A DNA stretch of 64,000 nucleotides from the NCBI RefSeq assembly GCF_004803715.2, contig NZ_CP039383.2, positions 62,001-126,000 of the forward strand. Reading direction: 5' to 3'. Both the position numbers and the translations under genes were made by a program. Origin of the DNA: Luteimonas yindakuii (GTDB lineage Bacteria; Pseudomonadota; Gammaproteobacteria; Xanthomonadales; Xanthomonadaceae). Shown here piece by piece: positions 3,983 through 62,786 of this stretch (its first letter is position 1; each line of letters starts with the position of its first letter). The notes under the pieces are model-generated. The model was not told the DNA's origin. It saw nothing but the letters and a program-made list of their open reading frames with translations, and searched no databases.

Positions 3983-4060
3983 GCGAACGCCAGCCGCCAT
4001 CGAAGTTCCAACGCGTCGCTGCGGCCGCGCAGCCCGGTGCGGGTCGGCACCAGGCGCGTA
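3983..4060 (-). pseudogene. Decayed duplicate of part of the AHSA1 gene
   Basis: These 78 bases align almost base for base with 2313-2390 inside the AHSA1 gene on the same strand. The shared core includes gcgtcgctgcggccgcgcag, then ccggtg-gggtc-gcaccag-cgcgt with a few substitutions. Translated, it still reads TGLRGRSDALE, matching TGLRGRSDALN of the intact gene, and then diverges. It has no start or stop of its own and lies just upstream of the DUF6630 gene. It is the remnant of a local duplication or a second AHSA1 gene. Confidence 0.75.
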
Positions 4061-4151
4061 GCGCGCCTTGAAACGTACCCGTCGGCCGGGGAGCGGCTTC
4101 CCGCGTGGCGCGTGCGCCACAATGCACGGCCCCGCACGATCAGGACGTCGC

Positions 4152-4370
4152 ATGGACGTTGAAGCTCTCCTCCGCGCAGCCCTTCGCGAAGCCGGCTACG
4201 GCCCCGACGCGATCGGCTCGGCGCTTCCCCGCATCATGCGCATCCTGCAGGCGGAGGACGTACGCATCGAAGCCGGTCGCGCCCTCTCGCGCAAGGAGCG
4301 CGAGTACGTGCGCGTGCAGCTCGAGATGGGCGTCGACGTGTCCGAGATCGTGGCAGGCCTCAAGCGCTGA
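4152..4370 (+). CDS. Small helical protein of unknown function
   Basis: A 72-residue protein starting at ATG 4152 (MDVEALLRAALREAGYG). It is predicted to be almost entirely helical and charged, with a pattern such as RKEREYVRVQLEMGVDVSEIVAGL near the C-terminus. I do not recognise it. The ORF stays open upstream to 4068, but that part is basic and low complexity, so the later start is chosen. No operon partner is obvious. Confidence 0.6.
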   Translation: MDVEALLRAALREAGYGPDAIGSALPRIMRILQAEDVRIEAGRALSRKEREYVRVQLEMGVDVSEIVAGLKR

Positions 4371-4549
4371 AAGCCAGGCCTGCCATCTGGTCGGGTGTTG
4401 ACCGGCGACTGGTCTGACCCCCGGACCGGCGAGCTTGAATGCTCTCCGGAGCCCTGCCGTCAGCCCGGGGCAATGCCCTATTCCCAGACACCACGGCCGA
4501 TCGCAGCACGTACGCCGCCATGTCGGCAGGGCGTAACGGATTGCGTCAT

Positions 4550-4566
4550 ATAACGGCATCCGTTAT
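4550..4566. promoter_or_regulatory. Probable HigA operator (inverted repeat)
   Basis: A perfect 6-bp inverted repeat, ATAACG-N5-CGTTAT, just upstream of higB. A -10-like TATAAC (4549-4554) lies inside its left arm and a half-site TAACGG lies at 4534-4539. HigA-type antitoxins repress their own operons by binding such palindromes over the promoter. The link to HigA is inferred from position. Confidence 0.7.
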
Positions 4567-4576
4567 GATCACCGCC

Positions 4577-4858
4577 GTGATACGGAGTTTCGCCGACAGG
4601 GAAGCGGAGAAGATCTGGCGCGGCGAACGCTCGCGCAGGTTGCCTATGGATATCCAGCAGACTGCCCGGCGCAAGCTGCGCATGCTCAATGCCGCCGCGG
4701 TGCTCGACGACCTGCGTATCCCCCCGGCGAACCGGCTTGAAGCGCTCAAGGGCGAGCGCAAGGGCCAGCACAGCATCCGGATCAACGATCAATGGCGCAT
4801 CTGCTTCAGATGGACGGAAGGCGGGGCCAGCGACGTCCAGATCGTCGATTACCACTAG
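4577..4858 (+). CDS. higB: Toxin of the HigB/RelE family
   Basis: A 93-residue mRNA-interferase toxin with the usual HigB length and order: IRSFADREAEKIWRGERSRR, then ARRKLRMLNAAAVLDDLR, PPANRLEALKGERKGQHSI and RINDQWRICFRW at the C-terminal sheet. HigB cleaves mRNA on the ribosome and is blocked by HigA. The GTG at 4577 matches the usual family start. An in-frame ATG at 4565 would overlap the operator. higA follows 18 bp downstream in the usual toxin-first order. No key residue appears to be missing. Confidence 0.9.
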   Translation: MIRSFADREAEKIWRGERSRRLPMDIQQTARRKLRMLNAAAVLDDLRIPPANRLEALKGERKGQHSIRINDQWRICFRWTEGGASDVQIVDYH

Positions 4859-4876
4859 TCCGAAGAGGATCGGCCC

Positions 4877-5167
4877 ATGGCTGCCTTGTCCAATGTCCAC
4901 CCAGGCGAAGTGCTGCAGGAAGAGTTCCTGATGCCGCTGGGTATCAGCCAGAATGCGCTGGCCCGCGCCATGGCCGTGCCTCCGCGTCGTATCAACGAGA
5001 TCGTGCTGGGCAAGCGCGGCGTTACCGCCGACACCGCCGTGCGCCTGGCTGCGGCCCTGGGCACCAGCGAGCGCTTCTGGCTCGGTCTGCAGGCTGACTA
5101 CGATCTGGAAGAAGCGCGCCGCGCGCTGGGCAGCCTGCCCGGCAGGATCAAGCGACTGGCAGCGTAA
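4877..5167 (+). CDS. higA: Antitoxin of the HigA family (XRE helix-turn-helix)
   Basis: A 96-residue protein of typical HigA length. It opens with VHPGEVLQEEFLMPLGISQN, continues through an XRE helix-turn-helix (ALARAMAVPPRRINEIVLGK, then the RGVTADTAVRLAAALG helices) and ends with the family signature SERFWLGLQADYDLEEARR. It neutralises HigB and probably represses the operon by binding the ATAACG-N5-CGTTAT palindrome. A GA-rich ribosome-binding site (AAGAGG, from 4863) precedes the ATG. Confidence 0.93.
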   Translation: MAALSNVHPGEVLQEEFLMPLGISQNALARAMAVPPRRINEIVLGKRGVTADTAVRLAAALGTSERFWLGLQADYDLEEARRALGSLPGRIKRLAA

Positions 5168-5200
5168 TCGGCCAGCCGAGCACTCCGATGCCTCTGCATC

Positions 5201-6112
5201 ATGTTGTATCGCCACGTCCCGGGCAGTGCGCAGGAGGTCGTGCATGCGACCTCCTTGGAAACGTATAGATCCAGGTTCGAATCGGAAACGATTCACTGCG
5301 TGCATTGCGGTGAGAGCGCGTACGGCTATTACGATCTGGACGACTGGCCATACGGCCTCACGGACTTCGAGCTGGCCTACAAGGAGGTGGCCGAACACAC
5401 GTTTGAAGTCCACGGCCTGGACGCGGACCATCCGCACGTACGTCTGCGCGGCGACGTCTGCGAGCGTCAGGCATCCTTGCATATCTGCCAGATGTGCGGT
5501 TGGTGGGCGGCGGTCGACAGCGCGGTCCTTCCTGCCGTCGGAAGCCAGCTCTGGCTCCTTAACCTGGTTGCGCCCGCCGTCCTGATGGAACTGGACGTGG
5601 GTGACCTGTCGGCACCGCTGGGCGAAGTGCGCAACTTCCTGCGTCGGCGCTACGACGCCAGGCACCATATCGCGCCGCGGCTGTTCGAGCGGGTTGTTGC
5701 CAGCGTCTTCAGGGACAGCGGATACGAGGCGGAAGCGACCGCCTACTCGAACGATGGCGGGATCGACATAGTGCTGTGCGATCGCGCAGGCCGGCATGCC
5801 GGCGTACAAGTAAAGCGTTGGGGTCGCGCCGTCGAGGTCGAGCAGATTCGAGCGTTCCTCGGTGCATTGATGCTGGGCGGCTACGCGCGGGGCGTGTTCG
5901 TATCCACGAGTGGGTTCCAGCGCGGGGCGGCACGCGCCGCGACGGCGTGTCGTCCGTGGGCGTCCATAGAGCTTGTCGATGCGCAACGCTTCTTCGATAT
6001 GTTGGGTATCGCCCAGCTACAGACCGGGATCGACCCTGAGAAGTGCGGCTTCTACGCAGCGGGCAAGCCGCCCGTACTCCTGCACTCTGCGTTTCATTTG
6101 AATTCGATCTAG
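5201..6112 (+). CDS. Mrr-like restriction endonuclease with zinc ribbon
   Basis: A 303-residue protein. The C-terminal half (about residues 145-265) is a Mrr_cat PD-(D/E)XK nuclease: FERVVASVFRDSGYEAE, the catalytic NDGGIDIVL, then GVQVKRW with the catalytic Lys, and GVFVSTSGF. The N-terminal half has paired cysteines, CVHCG near residue 33 and CQMCGWW near 96, that look like a split zinc ribbon. Mrr-type enzymes cut modified or foreign DNA. It lies 33 bp after higA, and its wobble positions look less GC-rich than those of mgtE or rtcB, so transfer together with higBA is plausible. The modification specificity cannot be read from the sequence. Confidence 0.82.
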   Translation: MLYRHVPGSAQEVVHATSLETYRSRFESETIHCVHCGESAYGYYDLDDWPYGLTDFELAYKEVAEHTFEVHGLDADHPHVRLRGDVCERQASLHICQMCGWWAAVDSAVLPAVGSQLWLLNLVAPAVLMELDVGDLSAPLGEVRNFLRRRYDARHHIAPRLFERVVASVFRDSGYEAEATAYSNDGGIDIVLCDRAGRHAGVQVKRWGRAVEVEQIRAFLGALMLGGYARGVFVSTSGFQRGAARAATACRPWASIELVDAQRFFDMLGIAQLQTGIDPEKCGFYAAGKPPVLLHSAFHLNSI

Positions 6113-6347: not shown

Positions 6348-7565
<1,218 letters not shown>

Positions 7566-7723
7566 GCGGAAAGCATCGGGCCGTCCTGGCCCAGGCACTG
7601 CGGTGGAGCGGCTCGGCGGCCCGGCACACCGTCGTTTTCGAGGCCTTACATCCGGGCAGGCATGCTGGGCGCCAGACACGTACCGCGCCCGTTGTGCGGC
7701 GCACGCCCAAAGGAGTTCCCCGC

Positions 7724-8734
7724 ATGACCATCAGGACCCTCCACATCCCCGCCGGTGGCGGCTTCGAGCATGTGACCGTCGGCAGCACGCAACCGGTCGA
7801 ACCGCGCCCGGGCGAGATCACCGTGCGCCTGCGCGCGAGCTCGCTGAACTTCCACGATTACATGGTGGTGAAGGGCGTCACCGGGCCGACCGAGCAGCGC
7901 ATTCCGATGTCCGACGGTGCCGGCGAGGTCATCGCGGTGGGCGATGGCGTCAGCGGGTTCGACGTCGGCGACCACGTGGTCAGCACGTTCTTCCCGGACT
8001 GGCTCGACGGCGAGCCGCAGGTGGAAGGCTTCGCCCGTACCCCGGGTGACGGCATCGATGGCTATGCGCGCGAGCAGGTGAGCGCGCCGGCCACGTCATT
8101 CACCCGCGCGCCGCGCGGCTGGAGCCACGCCGAGGCCGCGACGCTCACCACCGCAGGGCTGACCGCGTGGCGGGCGCTGATGGACGACGGCGCGCTCAAG
8201 CCCGGTGAGGTGGTGCTGGTGCAGGGCACCGGCGGGGTGTCGATCTTCGCGCTGCAGTTCGCGAAGCTGGCCGGTGCGCGGGTGATCGCGACCTCGTCGA
8301 GCGATGCCAAGCTCGAGCGCCTGCGCGAACTGGGCGCCGACGAGGTGATCAACTACCGCGAGGATCCGGACTGGGGCCTTACCGCACGGCGAATGACCGG
8401 CGGCAACGGCGTCGACCACGTGCTCGACGTCGGCGGCCCGGCGACGTTGGCGCAATCCATGCTGGCCTCGCGCGTGGGCGGGCACGTGGCGCTGATCGGC
8501 GTGCTCACCGGTGTCGACGGCCAGCTGCCGCTGGGCCTGGCGCTGGGGCGGCAGCTGCGCCTGCAGGCACTGGTGGTCGGCAGCCGCCGCCAGCAGCAGG
8601 ACATGGTGCGCGCGCTGGAAGCCGGCACGCTGCGGCCGGTGATCGACCGGCACTTTGCGCTGGATGATCTGGTGGCGGCGTTCCGGCATCAGGAAAGCGG
8701 CAGCCACTTCGGCAAGATCGTCCTCGACATCTGA
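7724..8734 (+). CDS. Zinc-independent MDR family alcohol dehydrogenase
   Basis: A 336-residue medium-chain dehydrogenase/reductase. It shows the N-terminal GroES-like fold (SSLNFHDYMVVKG), the IPMSDGAGEVIAVGDGVSGF block, GDHVVSTFF, the nucleotide-binding turn VLVQGTGGVSIFALQFAKLAGA, and the C-terminal HFGKIVLDI. The cysteines of catalytic-zinc alcohol dehydrogenases are absent, so a quinone-oxidoreductase-like NADPH reductase is likely. The start is set by ATG 7724 with a strong AAGGAG (7710-7715) at 8-bp spacing. The substrate is unknown. Confidence 0.88.
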   Translation: MTIRTLHIPAGGGFEHVTVGSTQPVEPRPGEITVRLRASSLNFHDYMVVKGVTGPTEQRIPMSDGAGEVIAVGDGVSGFDVGDHVVSTFFPDWLDGEPQVEGFARTPGDGIDGYAREQVSAPATSFTRAPRGWSHAEAATLTTAGLTAWRALMDDGALKPGEVVLVQGTGGVSIFALQFAKLAGARVIATSSSDAKLERLRELGADEVINYREDPDWGLTARRMTGGNGVDHVLDVGGPATLAQSMLASRVGGHVALIGVLTGVDGQLPLGLALGRQLRLQALVVGSRRQQQDMVRALEAGTLRPVIDRHFALDDLVAAFRHQESGSHFGKIVLDI

Positions 8735-8816
8735 GTCACCGCACCGATCCGGAAGTCGGGGTCGGGGTCACGAGGTCCGGCTAGTTCGCACAGCGCCCAT
8801 GGCGGTACGCTGCGGC

Positions 8817-9371
8817 ATGGCCAACCGCACGCCGACCCGGGTCCGATTCGATGCACGCCTGCAGCGGCCTGCGCAGCCGGCGGATGCCGACTGGGCCTTC
8901 CTCGTCCTGCCCGCGGCGGCCAGCGCGAAGCTGCCGACGCGCAGCCAGGTGACCGTGGACGGCACGCTCGCGGGGACGCCGTTCCAGGCCACGCTGGAGC
9001 CGGACGGGCAGGGCAGCCACTGGCTCAGGGTCGGTCACGAATTGCTCGCCGCCGCCGATGTGCGGACCGGTGACACCGTGACCCTGGAGATCGCGCCAGT
9101 AACGGAGGAACCGGAACCCGAAGTGCCGCCGGACCTCCAGGCCGCGCTCGCCGCGAACACCGCCGCCAAGGCCACCTGGGACGACGTCACACCTGTCGCC
9201 CGCCGCGACTGGATCCAGTGGGTGACCTCCGGCAAGAAGGCCGAGACGCGCGCGAAGCGCATCGCCACCGCCTGCGACAAGCTGGCCTCGGGCCAGCGCC
9301 GTGCCTGCTGCTTCGACCGCTCCGGCATGTACAGCCGCGGCAACCTCGGCCCGCCGGAAGCGGCGGAGTGA
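8817..9371 (+). CDS. YdeI/OmpD-associated (OmdA) family protein
   Basis: A 184-residue cytoplasmic protein. Residues 5-95 form a DUF1905-type beta domain (VRFDARLQRP, DWAFLVLP, SQVTVDGTLAGTPFQATLEP). The C-terminal helices (PPDLQAALAANTAAKATWDD, RRDWIQWVTSGKKAETRAKR) are the OmdA/bacteriocin-protection YdeI signature. The function of the family is not settled. Start ATG 8817 (MANRTPTRVRFDAR) is preferred over ATG 8799 because the family begins near this point. Confidence 0.84.
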   Translation: MANRTPTRVRFDARLQRPAQPADADWAFLVLPAAASAKLPTRSQVTVDGTLAGTPFQATLEPDGQGSHWLRVGHELLAAADVRTGDTVTLEIAPVTEEPEPEVPPDLQAALAANTAAKATWDDVTPVARRDWIQWVTSGKKAETRAKRIATACDKLASGQRRACCFDRSGMYSRGNLGPPEAAE

Positions 9372-9475
9372 TTCACCTGCATTTCGTTCTGATCCGTCGG
9401 CAGTGCCAGTCTTCGGGTGTGAATTTCGATCGGCCGAAACCGGTCTGACCTGCTCGCGCAGCAATGGGAGGAACC

Positions 9476-9799
9476 ATGAGAGCTGTTGCTTTGATTCTTC
9501 TGCTCTCCATCACCGGATGCTCGAGTCATCAGGGTCCGCCGGAGGCTCTTCCGGATGACGTGAAACGGTTTATCGAACGACGGGACAACTGCGATTATTT
9601 CCGCGGCGAGCTTCCCGATCCCCGCGATACCGTGCGGATGACCGAGGTGATCTCCGGCATTGGCCGGTTCTGTACAGGGACGGATCGATCGCTCGCCGCC
9701 TTGAAGCGCAAGTACTCGGGGCGCAGCGAAATCGCTGACAGGCTCTCGAAGTACGACGAGATACTAGAGACGACCAAGGAGGCCAGTGGAGGATTCTGA
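9476..9799 (+). CDS. Small lipoprotein of unknown function
   Basis: A 107-residue protein with a lipoprotein signal ending in the lipobox SITGC, so it is probably anchored in the outer membrane. The mature part holds CDYFRGELPDP, FCTGTDRSLAALKRKY and a helical tail. I do not recognise a named domain. A clear Shine-Dalgarno GGGAGG (9467-9472) supports ATG 9476. It converges on the type VI effector module 36 bp away. An immunity-like or envelope role is a guess. Confidence 0.75.
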   Translation: MRAVALILLLSITGCSSHQGPPEALPDDVKRFIERRDNCDYFRGELPDPRDTVRMTEVISGIGRFCTGTDRSLAALKRKYSGRSEIADRLSKYDEILETTKEASGGF

Positions 9800-9835: not shown

Positions 9836-10312
9836 TCAGTGATAGGCGTACGTGATTGTGACCAGCGTGCCCAGGGTTAGACGCACTACCTCGACCTCGA
9901 TTGAAACATCCTCGGGCGTCAGGATCCGAGCGATCAAGCCGGTCGCGGTGTCTTCAGCCACGAAGCTCGACTGCGCCAACGCCTGGGCCAACAACGCGTG
10001 GACGTCGTCGGGGAAGACCAGCCGTGAGAGCTCTTCCGCAACATGTTGCCATCGCGGGTGCGAATCCTGGGGTCGTTCTGGAAACAGCCATAGCACAGCC
10101 GACATCCCGGAGTGCAGGCACCCCATTGCAGCAACCCGTAGCAAGCGCCCGTCTTTCAGCAGTACCGAAGCCCGGCCGCGATCTTGGTCGATGGTCGTCG
10201 CGATAACGTCCCTGCTCTGCTGCAGCCTCTCGATCGGCAGCGAAGGCGGCTGCATGGTGCAGGTATCGGCCCCGCCTATGGCGAGTCCCGCCGCGATGAG
10301 AACGCTGAGCAT
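9836..10312 (-). CDS. Exported protein, candidate immunity protein
   Basis: A 158-residue protein with a short hydrophobic N-terminus (LSVLIAAGLAIGGADTC), so likely periplasmic. The rest is a mixed alpha/beta protein with four cysteines (C18 near the N-terminus, C65) and no domain I recognise. The ATG lies 2 bp after the TGA of the peptidase-like gene upstream, so they are translated as a unit behind a PAAR gene. By position, and because the predicted toxin would act on periplasmic peptidoglycan, it is the natural candidate for the cognate immunity protein. That role is inferred. Confidence 0.7.
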   Translation of the reverse strand: MLSVLIAAGLAIGGADTCTMQPPSLPIERLQQSRDVIATTIDQDRGRASVLLKDGRLLRVAAMGCLHSGMSAVLWLFPERPQDSHPRWQHVAEELSRLVFPDDVHALLAQALAQSSFVAEDTATGLIARILTPEDVSIEVEVVRLTLGTLVTITYAYH

Positions 10313-10314
10313 CG

Positions 10315-10893
10315 TCAGATCTCCAGGTGGTACGCGGGGTCGCGCGGGGGTTGGAGGAAATGTCGCACGGCATTGTGGGCCTGAACCGCTGCCACGAATC
10401 GGGCCCGGGCACCAGCCGGTATCGAGCTAGGAGCGACATCGAACACGCAGATGCCATCCTGTGCGATGTGCCGGGAGACGTTCTCGGGACCGACCTCGCG
10501 AATACGGGCCGCCATGGCCGCGCGTATCCCGTGTTCGTCAAGACCTGCGCGAGCGCCTTCCTCGTAGGCGCTGACAACGGCCTGACCGGGAGCACGGTAG
10601 AGCGAGCGAACGGCGGCCGCACCTTGTCGCCGGATGTTTCCGTACATGATGCGAGCCTGATCTTCCACGGCGCGCGCGGTGCTTGTGATGGTCACCGAGC
10701 GGATGCAGGCGTTCGAGCAGATCTGGCGGAGAGCCGAGAGTGCTTCATCTGTCATCGCTTCACGTCGTGCATTGGGACCGTACTTGATCCGGACCTGCTC
10801 TGGGGCTGGGCACGATACGACCACATGCCGAGGAGACGTGTCGGATGCCGGTGTCAGCTTGCTCGCTTCGCTATGCACCATGTTCGGATTCAT
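10315..10893 (-). CDS. M15-like peptidoglycan hydrolase, candidate T6SS effector
   Basis: A 192-residue protein with no signal peptide. The centre reads IRSVTITSTARAVEDQARIMY, like the TSxxR..xxQ entry of peptidoglycan-degrading M15 enzymes. The C-terminus has the metal-site pattern: SRHIAQDGICVFDVAPSS gives His142 and Asp152, and DPAYHLEI gives His189, comparable with the SxH...D and W/YHxE of VanY-type peptidases. The His-Asp spacing is longer than in classical VanY. It overlaps the PAAR gene by 4 bp (ATGA). A peptidoglycan-cutting type VI cargo is the best reading; the bond cut is unknown. Confidence 0.72.
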   Translation of the reverse strand: MNPNMVHSEASKLTPASDTSPRHVVVSCPAPEQVRIKYGPNARREAMTDEALSALRQICSNACIRSVTITSTARAVEDQARIMYGNIRRQGAAAVRSLYRAPGQAVVSAYEEGARAGLDEHGIRAAMAARIREVGPENVSRHIAQDGICVFDVAPSSIPAGARARFVAAVQAHNAVRHFLQPPRDPAYHLEI

Positions 10894-11408
10894 GCCAGCA
10901 CCTCGATCACCGCATCCAGCGCAGTGGCACCCGTGACTCGCACAGTGGACCCGCGTTCGTCAGACACGCCCCCGATCGAACGGCCGTCCGAGAGCTTGAT
11001 GCGATAAGGCGTGTTGGGCAGGGGCTGACCGGATGCGCTGTTGCACAGCACGAAGGTGCGGTCGAATGCCATGGATGCCAACGAGGCGGATGCGGCTCGC
11101 GGGCCTGCTGCGCATGAGCGCGAGGAATCTCTGTCGCTCTGTGGATTCTGCTCGACGAAGGCGTGCACCTGGGACGAAATCAGCATCGCTCCGCAAGCTG
11201 CTCTGTCGCCATGTCTGGCGATTGGCTGACCGTCCACGATCAGTGTGGAATCACCGGATACGATTGCGGTGGGGCCATGGCGGCTACACACCACGCGGTC
11301 TCCAACGCGCGCCACGGGCCTGCCGTCGATATCGGTAAAAGGCGATCCCGATACGACGCTACCTCCATGGTCCAGCGCATCACCCACACAAACAATGGGC
11401 TTCGCCAT
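10890..11408 (-). CDS. PAAR domain protein with C-terminal extension
   Basis: A 172-residue protein. Residues 1-95 form a PAAR domain: AKPIVCVGDALDHGGSVVSGSP, RPVARVGDRVVC, HGPTAIVSGDSTLIVDGQPIAR and HGDRAACGA repeats. PAAR proteins cap the VgrG spike of the type VI secretion system. A linker (100-115) leads to a beta-rich tail (FVLCNSASGQPLPNTPYRI, DGRSIGGVSDERGST) of the kind that docks or extends cargo. It is the first gene of a three-gene unit with the peptidase-like gene and the exported protein. No other T6SS genes are in the window, so this is an orphan effector cluster. Confidence 0.88.
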   Translation of the reverse strand: MAKPIVCVGDALDHGGSVVSGSPFTDIDGRPVARVGDRVVCSRHGPTAIVSGDSTLIVDGQPIARHGDRAACGAMLISSQVHAFVEQNPQSDRDSSRSCAAGPRAASASLASMAFDRTFVLCNSASGQPLPNTPYRIKLSDGRSIGGVSDERGSTVRVTGATALDAVIEVLA

Positions 11409-11542: not shown

Positions 11543-12403
11543 TCACCGATACGCCCCCGGCCCGCGCCACAGCATTTCGCCGCGCCGGTAGACGCCGTGC
11601 ATGGTGATGACCTCGCGGGCGTCGCCGATGCTGGCGAGTTCGGGGTCGTCGGGTTCGAGCAGGCGGCAGGGGCCGGATTCGCGGCGCAGCGCGGTTTCCA
11701 GCGGGCAGACCATGCGCTGGCGGGTGCCGGGAAGGGGGAAGAAGACCTCGGTCATGCCGGCGTCGCGCCAGGCGCGCAGGCGGGTTTCGCTGCGCAGGTC
11801 GTAGATCACCTGGTAGCCGCCGGCCTCCATGCTGGGGCCGCTGGAGGAATCGCGGCCGCGGCCACGGCCTGCCGTGATGTTGCGCCCGGTGCCGGCGTTC
11901 ACCGGCGAGGTCGCCTGCGGCAGCATGCCCGGCGGTTGGCCCCAGGTGCGCGTGCGCTGCGCGGTGGGCGGGCTGGTGGCGGCGCCGGCGACCGGCGCGG
12001 GTGATGGCGGTGGCGGATGCGGGACAGGTGGCTGCGGAAGCAGCTCGGTAATCGCCGGGGTCTGCGCGTCGGATTCCTGCGGACGCGCCTCGTCGGCGCG
12101 GATGACCTCGGTGGTGCGCACGCGCGAGGGCGCGGCCCGGGTCGGCGTGCGTGGGCGCGGGGGCGGCGGGCTGGCGTGTGGTGCCTGCACCGGTTGCGGC
12201 GGGGTGAGGCCGACGAAATCGACCACCATCGGGCTGCCGGCCTCGGCGCCCTGCGGGTCGTTGGGCGTCATCGGCGTGGTGGACAGCAGCAGCCACGCAA
12301 GCCACAGGTGCAGCAGCACGCTGACCAGCACCGCGGTCGCGCGCTGCACGCCTTCGATGCGGGGTGCGTGGCCGGAAGCGGTCCGCGTCGACGCCTTGCT
12401 CAT
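11543..12403 (-). CDS. TonB-like, proline-rich inner-membrane protein
   Basis: A 286-residue protein with a single N-terminal membrane helix (about residues 22-42, ATAVLVSVLLHLWLAWLLL), a long Pro-rich periplasmic stretch (about 70-150) and a C-terminal globular region from about residue 190 (GGYQVIYDLRSETRLRAW, then VFFPLPGTRQRMVCPLE). The layout is that of TonB, but the C-terminus is not a clear TonB domain and no exbB or exbD is adjacent. A 134-bp gap separates it from the PAAR gene. Its function is unknown. Confidence 0.68.
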   Translation of the reverse strand: MSKASTRTASGHAPRIEGVQRATAVLVSVLLHLWLAWLLLSTTPMTPNDPQGAEAGSPMVVDFVGLTPPQPVQAPHASPPPPRPRTPTRAAPSRVRTTEVIRADEARPQESDAQTPAITELLPQPPVPHPPPPSPAPVAGAATSPPTAQRTRTWGQPPGMLPQATSPVNAGTGRNITAGRGRGRDSSSGPSMEAGGYQVIYDLRSETRLRAWRDAGMTEVFFPLPGTRQRMVCPLETALRRESGPCRLLEPDDPELASIGDAREVITMHGVYRRGEMLWRGPGAYR

Positions 12404-61780: not shown

Positions 61781-62786
61781 GCGGACCGACCCCGTCGTCG
61801 CCTATGCCCCGCCGTCCTGGTTGCGCAACGCGCATCTGCAGTCGGTGCTGGGCAGCAGCGGGTGGCGACGCCTGCGCGGCGCACGCGCGCTTGCCGCCAC
61901 CGGGGCGGTGACCACCGCGCACCTGCTCGACGGCGGCGACGGCGTGCGCCTGCTCGGCCTGCACAGCAGCATCGGCGGCCGCGCCCCGCGCGGGCTGGCG
62001 CTGCTGCTGCATGGCTGGGAAGGCAGTGCCGAATCCGGCTACATGCGCCTGACCGCCGCGCATTTCCTGCGCCGTGGCTTCGACGTGTTCCGGCTCAATT
62101 TCCGCGACCACGGTCCCACCCACCACCTCAACGAGGAACTGTTCCACTCCAATCGCATCGACGAGGTGGTGCACGCCGCACGCGACCTGTGTGCGCGCTT
62201 CCCGAGCCGGCCACTGGTGGCGGCGGGGTTCTCGCTGGGCGGCAACTTCGCATTGCGGGTGGCACAGCGCGCACCCGCGGCCGGACTGCCGCTGGCGGCG
62301 GTGGCCGCGGTGTGCCCGGTGCTCGATCCCGCGCTGACCCTGCAGCAGATGGAACGCGGCATGCCGCTGTACCTGCGCCATTTCGAGCGCAAGTGGCGCG
62401 AATCGCTGCTGCGCAAGCGCGCGCTGTTCCCCCAGCTCAGGACCATGGACGACCGCGTGCTGCGCATGGGCATGCGCGACCTCACCGAGTGGCTGGTGCT
62501 GCGGCACACCACGTTCGGCTCGCTCGACGAATACTTCGCCGGCTATTCGATCGCCGGCGAGCGCCTCGCGGGCCTTGCGGTCTCCGCGCATGTGCTGACC
62601 AGCGAGGACGATCCGGTGATCCCCGCCGACGGTTTCCGCGCGCTGCCCGACAACCCCTGCCTGCAGGTGGAGATCGCGCGCTGGGGCGGGCACTGCGGGT
62701 TCATCGAGAACGCGCGGCTCGACGGCTATGCCGAGCGCTGGGCGGTCGAGCGCCTGCTCGCCGATCCCCGGGTCGCCAGCCACTGA
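61770..62786 (+). CDS. YheT family alpha/beta hydrolase
   Basis: A 338-residue hydrolase. APPSWLRNAHLQSVLGSS, then LALLLHGWEGSAESGYMRL, FRLNFRDHGPTHHLNEELFHS and the nucleophile VAAGFSLGGNFALRVA define YheT. The acid is probably in TSEDDPVIP and the His in WGGHCGF. It overlaps the plsC stop. Its substrate is unknown; it is often near lipid genes. Confidence 0.93.
   Translation: MQARRTDPVVAYAPPSWLRNAHLQSVLGSSGWRRLRGARALAATGAVTTAHLLDGGDGVRLLGLHSSIGGRAPRGLALLLHGWEGSAESGYMRLTAAHFLRRGFDVFRLNFRDHGPTHHLNEELFHSNRIDEVVHAARDLCARFPSRPLVAAGFSLGGNFALRVAQRAPAAGLPLAAVAAVCPVLDPALTLQQMERGMPLYLRHFERKWRESLLRKRALFPQLRTMDDRVLRMGMRDLTEWLVLRHTTFGSLDEYFAGYSIAGERLAGLAVSAHVLTSEDDPVIPADGFRALPDNPCLQVEIARWGGHCGFIENARLDGYAERWAVERLLADPRVASH

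Follow-up and report, generated by a model that had tools for sequence, protein, structure and literature searches.

Peptidases of the M15 family (LAS, clan MD) hold their metal through His, Asp and His ligands, the first two spaced as H-x6-D (SxHxxGxAxD) and the last following the catalytic Glu or Asp in E/D-x2-H. The M15B members VanXY, VanY and LdcB are D,D- and L,D-carboxypeptidases of peptidoglycan. M15-type effectors of the type VI secretion system (T6SS) have already been listed in PMC6833914, PMC10210955 and PMC12135965. Acinetobacter Tpe14 (Peptidase M15_3), Neisseria LysM1 and the WHIX-linked Peptidase M15-like effectors are presented there as known or predicted T6SS cargo with named M15 domains and are predicted to cut peptidoglycan. 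Here we describe a locus of Luteimonas yindakuii, within a 64,000-nucleotide stretch (positions 62,001 to 126,000 of contig NZ_CP039383.2; the window hereafter), where a PAAR gene, a toxin candidate with an M15-like metal pattern and an immunity candidate lie together.

The toxin candidate of this locus differs from the listed effectors in that its family matches no named M15 model, it is encoded behind the gene for a PAAR protein with a tail, and it has an immunity family of its own. M15-type T6SS effectors are a known kind, and the new part is the divergent M15-like domain with its dedicated antidote family. Stenotrophomonas rhizophila, placed in the same bacterial family as the window strain by the naming used in PMC13340143, offers a further parallel: the Slt-like Tse2a lies beside the Zn-dependent DD-peptidase Tse2b, a pairing of lysozyme-like and zinc-peptidase effectors that recalls, by description only, the SLT fusions reported below. 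Unlike the window cassette, that pair sits in a vgrG operon.

We propose, with a probability of about 0.78, that the three genes form a self-contained cassette of T6SS cargo, in which PAAR would deliver an antibacterial effector with a divergent M15-like domain, matched by a dedicated antidote family. The basis in hand comprises the gene order, the conserved metal pattern, a confident model, the co-occurrence of the immunity family and the presence of T6SS genes in the genome.

Organisation of the cassette

The locus comprises the following features.

10890-11408, minus strand: PAAR spike-tip gene, 172 residues (PF05488, E 3.4e-26; phrog_5348, E 8.7e-34)
10315-10893, minus strand: M15-like zinc peptidase toxin candidate, 192 residues, with S71-x2-R74-x4-Q79, H142, D152, D185, H189 and E191
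9836-10312, minus strand: exported immunity protein candidate, 158 residues, with C18, C65 and G69 invariant in 12 aligned rows
9464-9799, plus strand, converging on the cassette: lipoprotein-like gene, 111 residues, a presumed partnerless antidote

The initial annotation had taken the three minus-strand genes as one PAAR-effector-immunity unit. The coordinates, the strand, a 4-bp overlap of the PAAR stop with the toxin start, and a 2-bp gap between the toxin stop codon and the ATG of the immunity candidate all bear this out, and the sequence supports the functional reading of the trio. The overlap would put the PAAR and toxin genes into one transcript, and all three reading frames are intact. 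Neither the toxin candidate (at a cut-off of E 10) nor the immunity candidate has a match in Pfam or NCBIfam. The toxin candidate is no chance open reading frame, since relatives are encoded at 32 loci in a scan of genome contigs and its codons 61-192 differ from those of a sister genome with a nonsynonymous proportion (pN) of 0.082 and a synonymous proportion (pS) of 0.581.

The toxin candidate family and its resemblance to M15 peptidases

Alignment A1 comprised the window toxin and 27 loci, with L001, L028, L029, L031 and L032 left out as frame-split or partial. A further 13 relatives, found on plasmids and viral contigs, in whole genomes and in a phage record, brought the family to 41 rows; these later matches were admitted if longer than 110 residues (L062 and L068-L073, short or weak, were left out). 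The window toxin has the three residues noted in the initial annotation. Of these, His142 is present in all 41 rows and His189 in all 40 rows with a residue there, while Asp152 is present in 40 and replaced by Asn in L030. Gln79 is likewise found in 41 of 41 rows, Ser71 and Arg74 in 39, and Asp at position 185 in 35. As DPAYHLEI and EDQARIMY served as search patterns, conservation in those stretches is inflated; His142 lies outside them.

His142, Asp152 and His189, putative metal ligands, follow the M15 order, and the S-x2-R-x4-Q motif of M15B enzymes of the VanY type is present with a spacing identical in 12 of 12 VanY sequences compared, so that S-x2-R-x4-Q, S-x-H, D and H succeed one another as they do in VanXY, VanY and LdcB. 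The spacings themselves are different. In place of H-x6-D the family has x8 to x13, and in place of E/D-x2-H the window toxin has D185-x3-H189. Furthermore, the motif Gln and the first metal His have 62 residues between them, compared with 28 in the VanY of the same genome, and the extra stretch is modelled as helices (92-139). The x9 spacing highlighted in the initial annotation is real but is not a mark of the family: the window toxin is the sole such row, x10 being usual (34 of 41), with x13 in four rows and x8 and x11 in one each.

The curated M15 models are among those without a match to the window toxin at E 10, while one of 28 family members matches VanY (E 0.049). Comparison of the family profile with M15 families by hhalign was not significant; these profiles drew on 29 loci for Peptidase_M15_3 (L102 and L103 not used, four dropped as short or wrongly read), 14 for Peptidase_M15_4 (two dropped for the same reasons) and 12 of 17 for VanY. 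The AlphaFold model of the toxin is confident (mean pLDDT 92.8), and fold comparison ranks VanXY, VanY and LdcB as its top peptidases with a middling match, whereas Foldseek against the PDB returned no significant M15 hit. The proposed M15 kinship rests on motif order together with this middling fold match. The initial reading as a divergent, undescribed subfamily is supported.

The family is rare: at E 1e-4, members were found in five out of 369 genomes sampled from the class and in three out of 398 sampled from the phylum, each count including the own genome. Its contexts are varied. In L007 the domain is fused to SLT (PF01464, E 2.5e-13), and a similar architecture is seen by eye in L009, L012, L016, L018 and L026; L020 is a fusion with PG_binding_1 and NlpC/P60, and L075 a LysM fusion with a PAAR gene (E 2.9e-22) after the partner gene. 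L011 and L019 have, by eye, Rhs-like N-terminal parts. On a Rahnella plasmid a relative lies between two annotated vgrG genes, and upstream of the L030 relative, separated from it by one short gene, is a gene for a VgrG that weakly matches SLT_2. Nine viral loci come from IMG/VR. In the phage-like L055 the relative precedes a small membrane protein (phrog_1322, E 0.0025), and in L053 a holin (phrog_199, E 2.9e-7) is encoded nearby on the opposite strand. Judging from these sequences, the family is uncatalogued and is also found in phage and other bacterial cell-wall-cutting proteins. We lean towards placing it in the M15 (LAS) clan as a group of peptidoglycan peptidases not described before, recognisable by a lengthened H-x8..13-D metal loop, a helical insertion and a D-x3-H end. 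On this view the family would be common to phage lysins, T6SS cargo, lysozyme-like fusions and Rhs toxins, in Proteobacteria it would be matched by a dedicated periplasmic immunity family, and the stem-peptide bond that it cuts may differ from the targets of known M15 enzymes.

The immunity candidate and its family

The third gene had been predicted to encode an exported protein. By eye and hydropathy, its product has an N-terminal hydrophobic stretch and its relatives have clearer signal-peptide-like N-termini, in keeping with that prediction, but the window copy lacks a positively charged start. A same-strand exported or lipoprotein-like gene lies directly downstream at 18 of 43 toxin loci (window included), counted by judgement where the partner started between 3 nt before and 30 nt after the toxin gene end. 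L013 (a 590-residue protein at +65), L026 and L055 (holin-like) were not counted despite comparable hydropathy. By eye, the Bacteroidota loci L011, L019, L027 and L052 have a different, lipoprotein-like partner.

A profile of eight immunity proteins, built without the window or sister copy and searched against the open reading frames of toxin-centred loci, finds the window protein (E 2e-14) and five new loci, and its matches at E<=1 sit directly 3' of a toxin gene or piece. Because those loci had been gathered around the toxin, they could not reveal the immunity family elsewhere, and whole genomes were searched to this end. Alignment A2, of 12 members (in the L031 row the first codon is not a start codon), yielded two matches at E 1e-4 in the 369 whole genomes of the class, in the own genome and G446, both beside a toxin match. 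Within the toxin-centred loci and whole genomes searched, the immunity family therefore occurs only beside the toxin. The model of the immunity candidate (mean pLDDT 86.1) has no significant PDB match by Foldseek. Tsi3, the immunity protein of the muramidase effector Tse3, has the top probability among the matches listed (0.57; three entries), a purely structural likeness that is not significant (E 0.17). No description of the toxin or immunity family was found in the literature searches made; papers cannot be searched by sequence, so that one may exist.

The PAAR tail and the T6SS of the genome

The PAAR protein has a beta-rich C-terminal tail (about residues 115-165) that is probably transthyretin-like. 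Part of this tail (residues 118-161) matches a segment that precedes the toxin domain in L017 (E 0.0021). Transthyretin-like tails of VgrG are thought to deliver cargo, according to PMC7376260. An annotated PAAR protein of Burkholderia phage KL3 (39583-40032) shares 34% identity with the window PAAR (E 3e-10) over 90% of its length, most of the tail included.

As initially annotated, no other T6SS gene lies nearby: the six neighbouring genes checked have no match to T6SS families, and PAAR and VipB were searched genome-wide. The genome, a single contig of 3.04 Mb, encodes VipB at 1.883 Mb and, by Pfam, VgrG, a ClpV-like Clp ATPase, TssG, TssF, Hcp, DotU/TssL, TssM and TagF. The cassette is therefore distant from the apparatus, yet the apparatus is present. 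Of 61 genomes searched (own included), 18 have PAAR, and these are also the 18 with VipB (lists compared by eye).

The genome has three PAAR genes, the window copy counted. At 1.272-1.274 Mb (L063, ~4020-5830), the gene for a Peptidase_M15_4 protein (SCHQYGLALD) is immediately followed by a short PAAR gene, and those for TssM and TagF lie downstream, an arrangement that we take to resemble that of TagX. At 1.371 Mb (L064, 5096-6328, minus strand), the third PAAR protein is fused, by way of a similar tail, to a C-terminus containing HExxH (HEMTHVWQYQ), and a lipoprotein-like gene follows.

Neighbourhood and sister locus

Four neighbours have a Pfam identity (RtcB, alcohol dehydrogenase, OmdA/DUF1905 and Peptidase_M3) and two have no Pfam match: 9464-9799, with a GC content of 58% against 70% for the window, and 11543-12403 (286 residues; TonB-like by eye only). 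In the sister locus L001 (NML91-0213), the TonB-like gene, PAAR, toxin and antidote are arranged as in the window. A second module converges on its cassette (7121-9006, minus strand), comprising PAAR2, which is a PAAR protein with a tail (E 7.4e-20), an effector with the ordinary H-x6-D (SRHIDGHAID) and no Pfam match at E 0.1, and a lipoprotein-like gene (7121-7525). Window gene 9464-9799 is a homologue of the latter (phmmer E 2.2e-25; 47/106 identical), while PAAR2 and the SRHIDGHAID effector are not at the window locus. It looks like an antidote gene that was left behind. The modules have probably been exchanged, not simply inherited, because cassette pS against the sister (0.58-0.67, near saturation) is far above that of the TonB-like neighbour (0.27).

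Proposed mechanism and alternative explanations

In the cassette that we propose, the PAAR protein would cap a VgrG spike belonging to the T6SS whose genes lie elsewhere in the genome, and the probably transthyretin-like tail of this protein may dock the toxin. In the periplasm of a rival, His142, Asp152 and His189 would hold zinc, and a peptide bond of peptidoglycan would be cut; a lysis-causing endopeptidase cut seems more probable than terminal trimming, because phage relatives occupy lysis contexts. The exported third protein, presumably held by a Cys18-Cys65 disulfide, would block the toxin within the producer's own periplasm.

Relatives do occur away from PAAR genes, in phages, Rhs proteins and lysozyme-like fusions, although the downstream partner genes and the dedicated immunity family speak for a conserved third gene. 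Three of the five toxin-hit genomes (G177, G271 and G297) have no immunity match, so that the pairing is not universal.

The toxin could be a zinc enzyme that acts in the periplasm on a different class of substrate (e.g., as a protease or other hydrolase) and has the M15 metal-site geometry only. The non-significant profile and Foldseek PDB comparisons favour this, as do H-x9/10-D and D-x3-H spacings unlike those of M15. We consider it unlikely, since the SLT, LysM, PG-binding and NlpC/P60 fusions and the phage lysis contexts indicate peptidoglycan, and the motifs stand in VanY order.

Less probable still is that lysins of phages or associated with tails are the main form of the domain, and that the window copy is a housekeeping or prophage-derived lysin. 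While the IMG/VR loci include some in tail or lysis neighbourhoods by eye, and the GC content of the cassette (62-64%) is below the 70% of the window, the PAAR gene overlaps the toxin start, an exported partner family follows, the six neighbours scanned have no match to phage structural or lysis families of PHROGs, and T6SS neighbours lie beside unrelated toxin relatives.

Least probable of all is a cassette decaying or unused in the window strain, as might be suggested by the sister toxin gene, split over two frames, and by the absence from the window of all but the presumed antidote gene of the second module, since the window frames are intact, the C-terminal pN/pS of the toxin is low and T6SS genes are present.

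Implications

Under the T6SS cargo reading, the locus provides a concrete, unmodelled wall-cutting domain that T6SS weapons have in common with lysins of phages, and an antidote family to go with it. A family model would allow automatic annotation of proteins now labelled hypothetical, and the cassette may serve as a case for studying cargo choice by the PAAR tail. Finally, the sister comparison points to a site at which modules of this kind are apparently gained and lost, with an antidote gene remaining.
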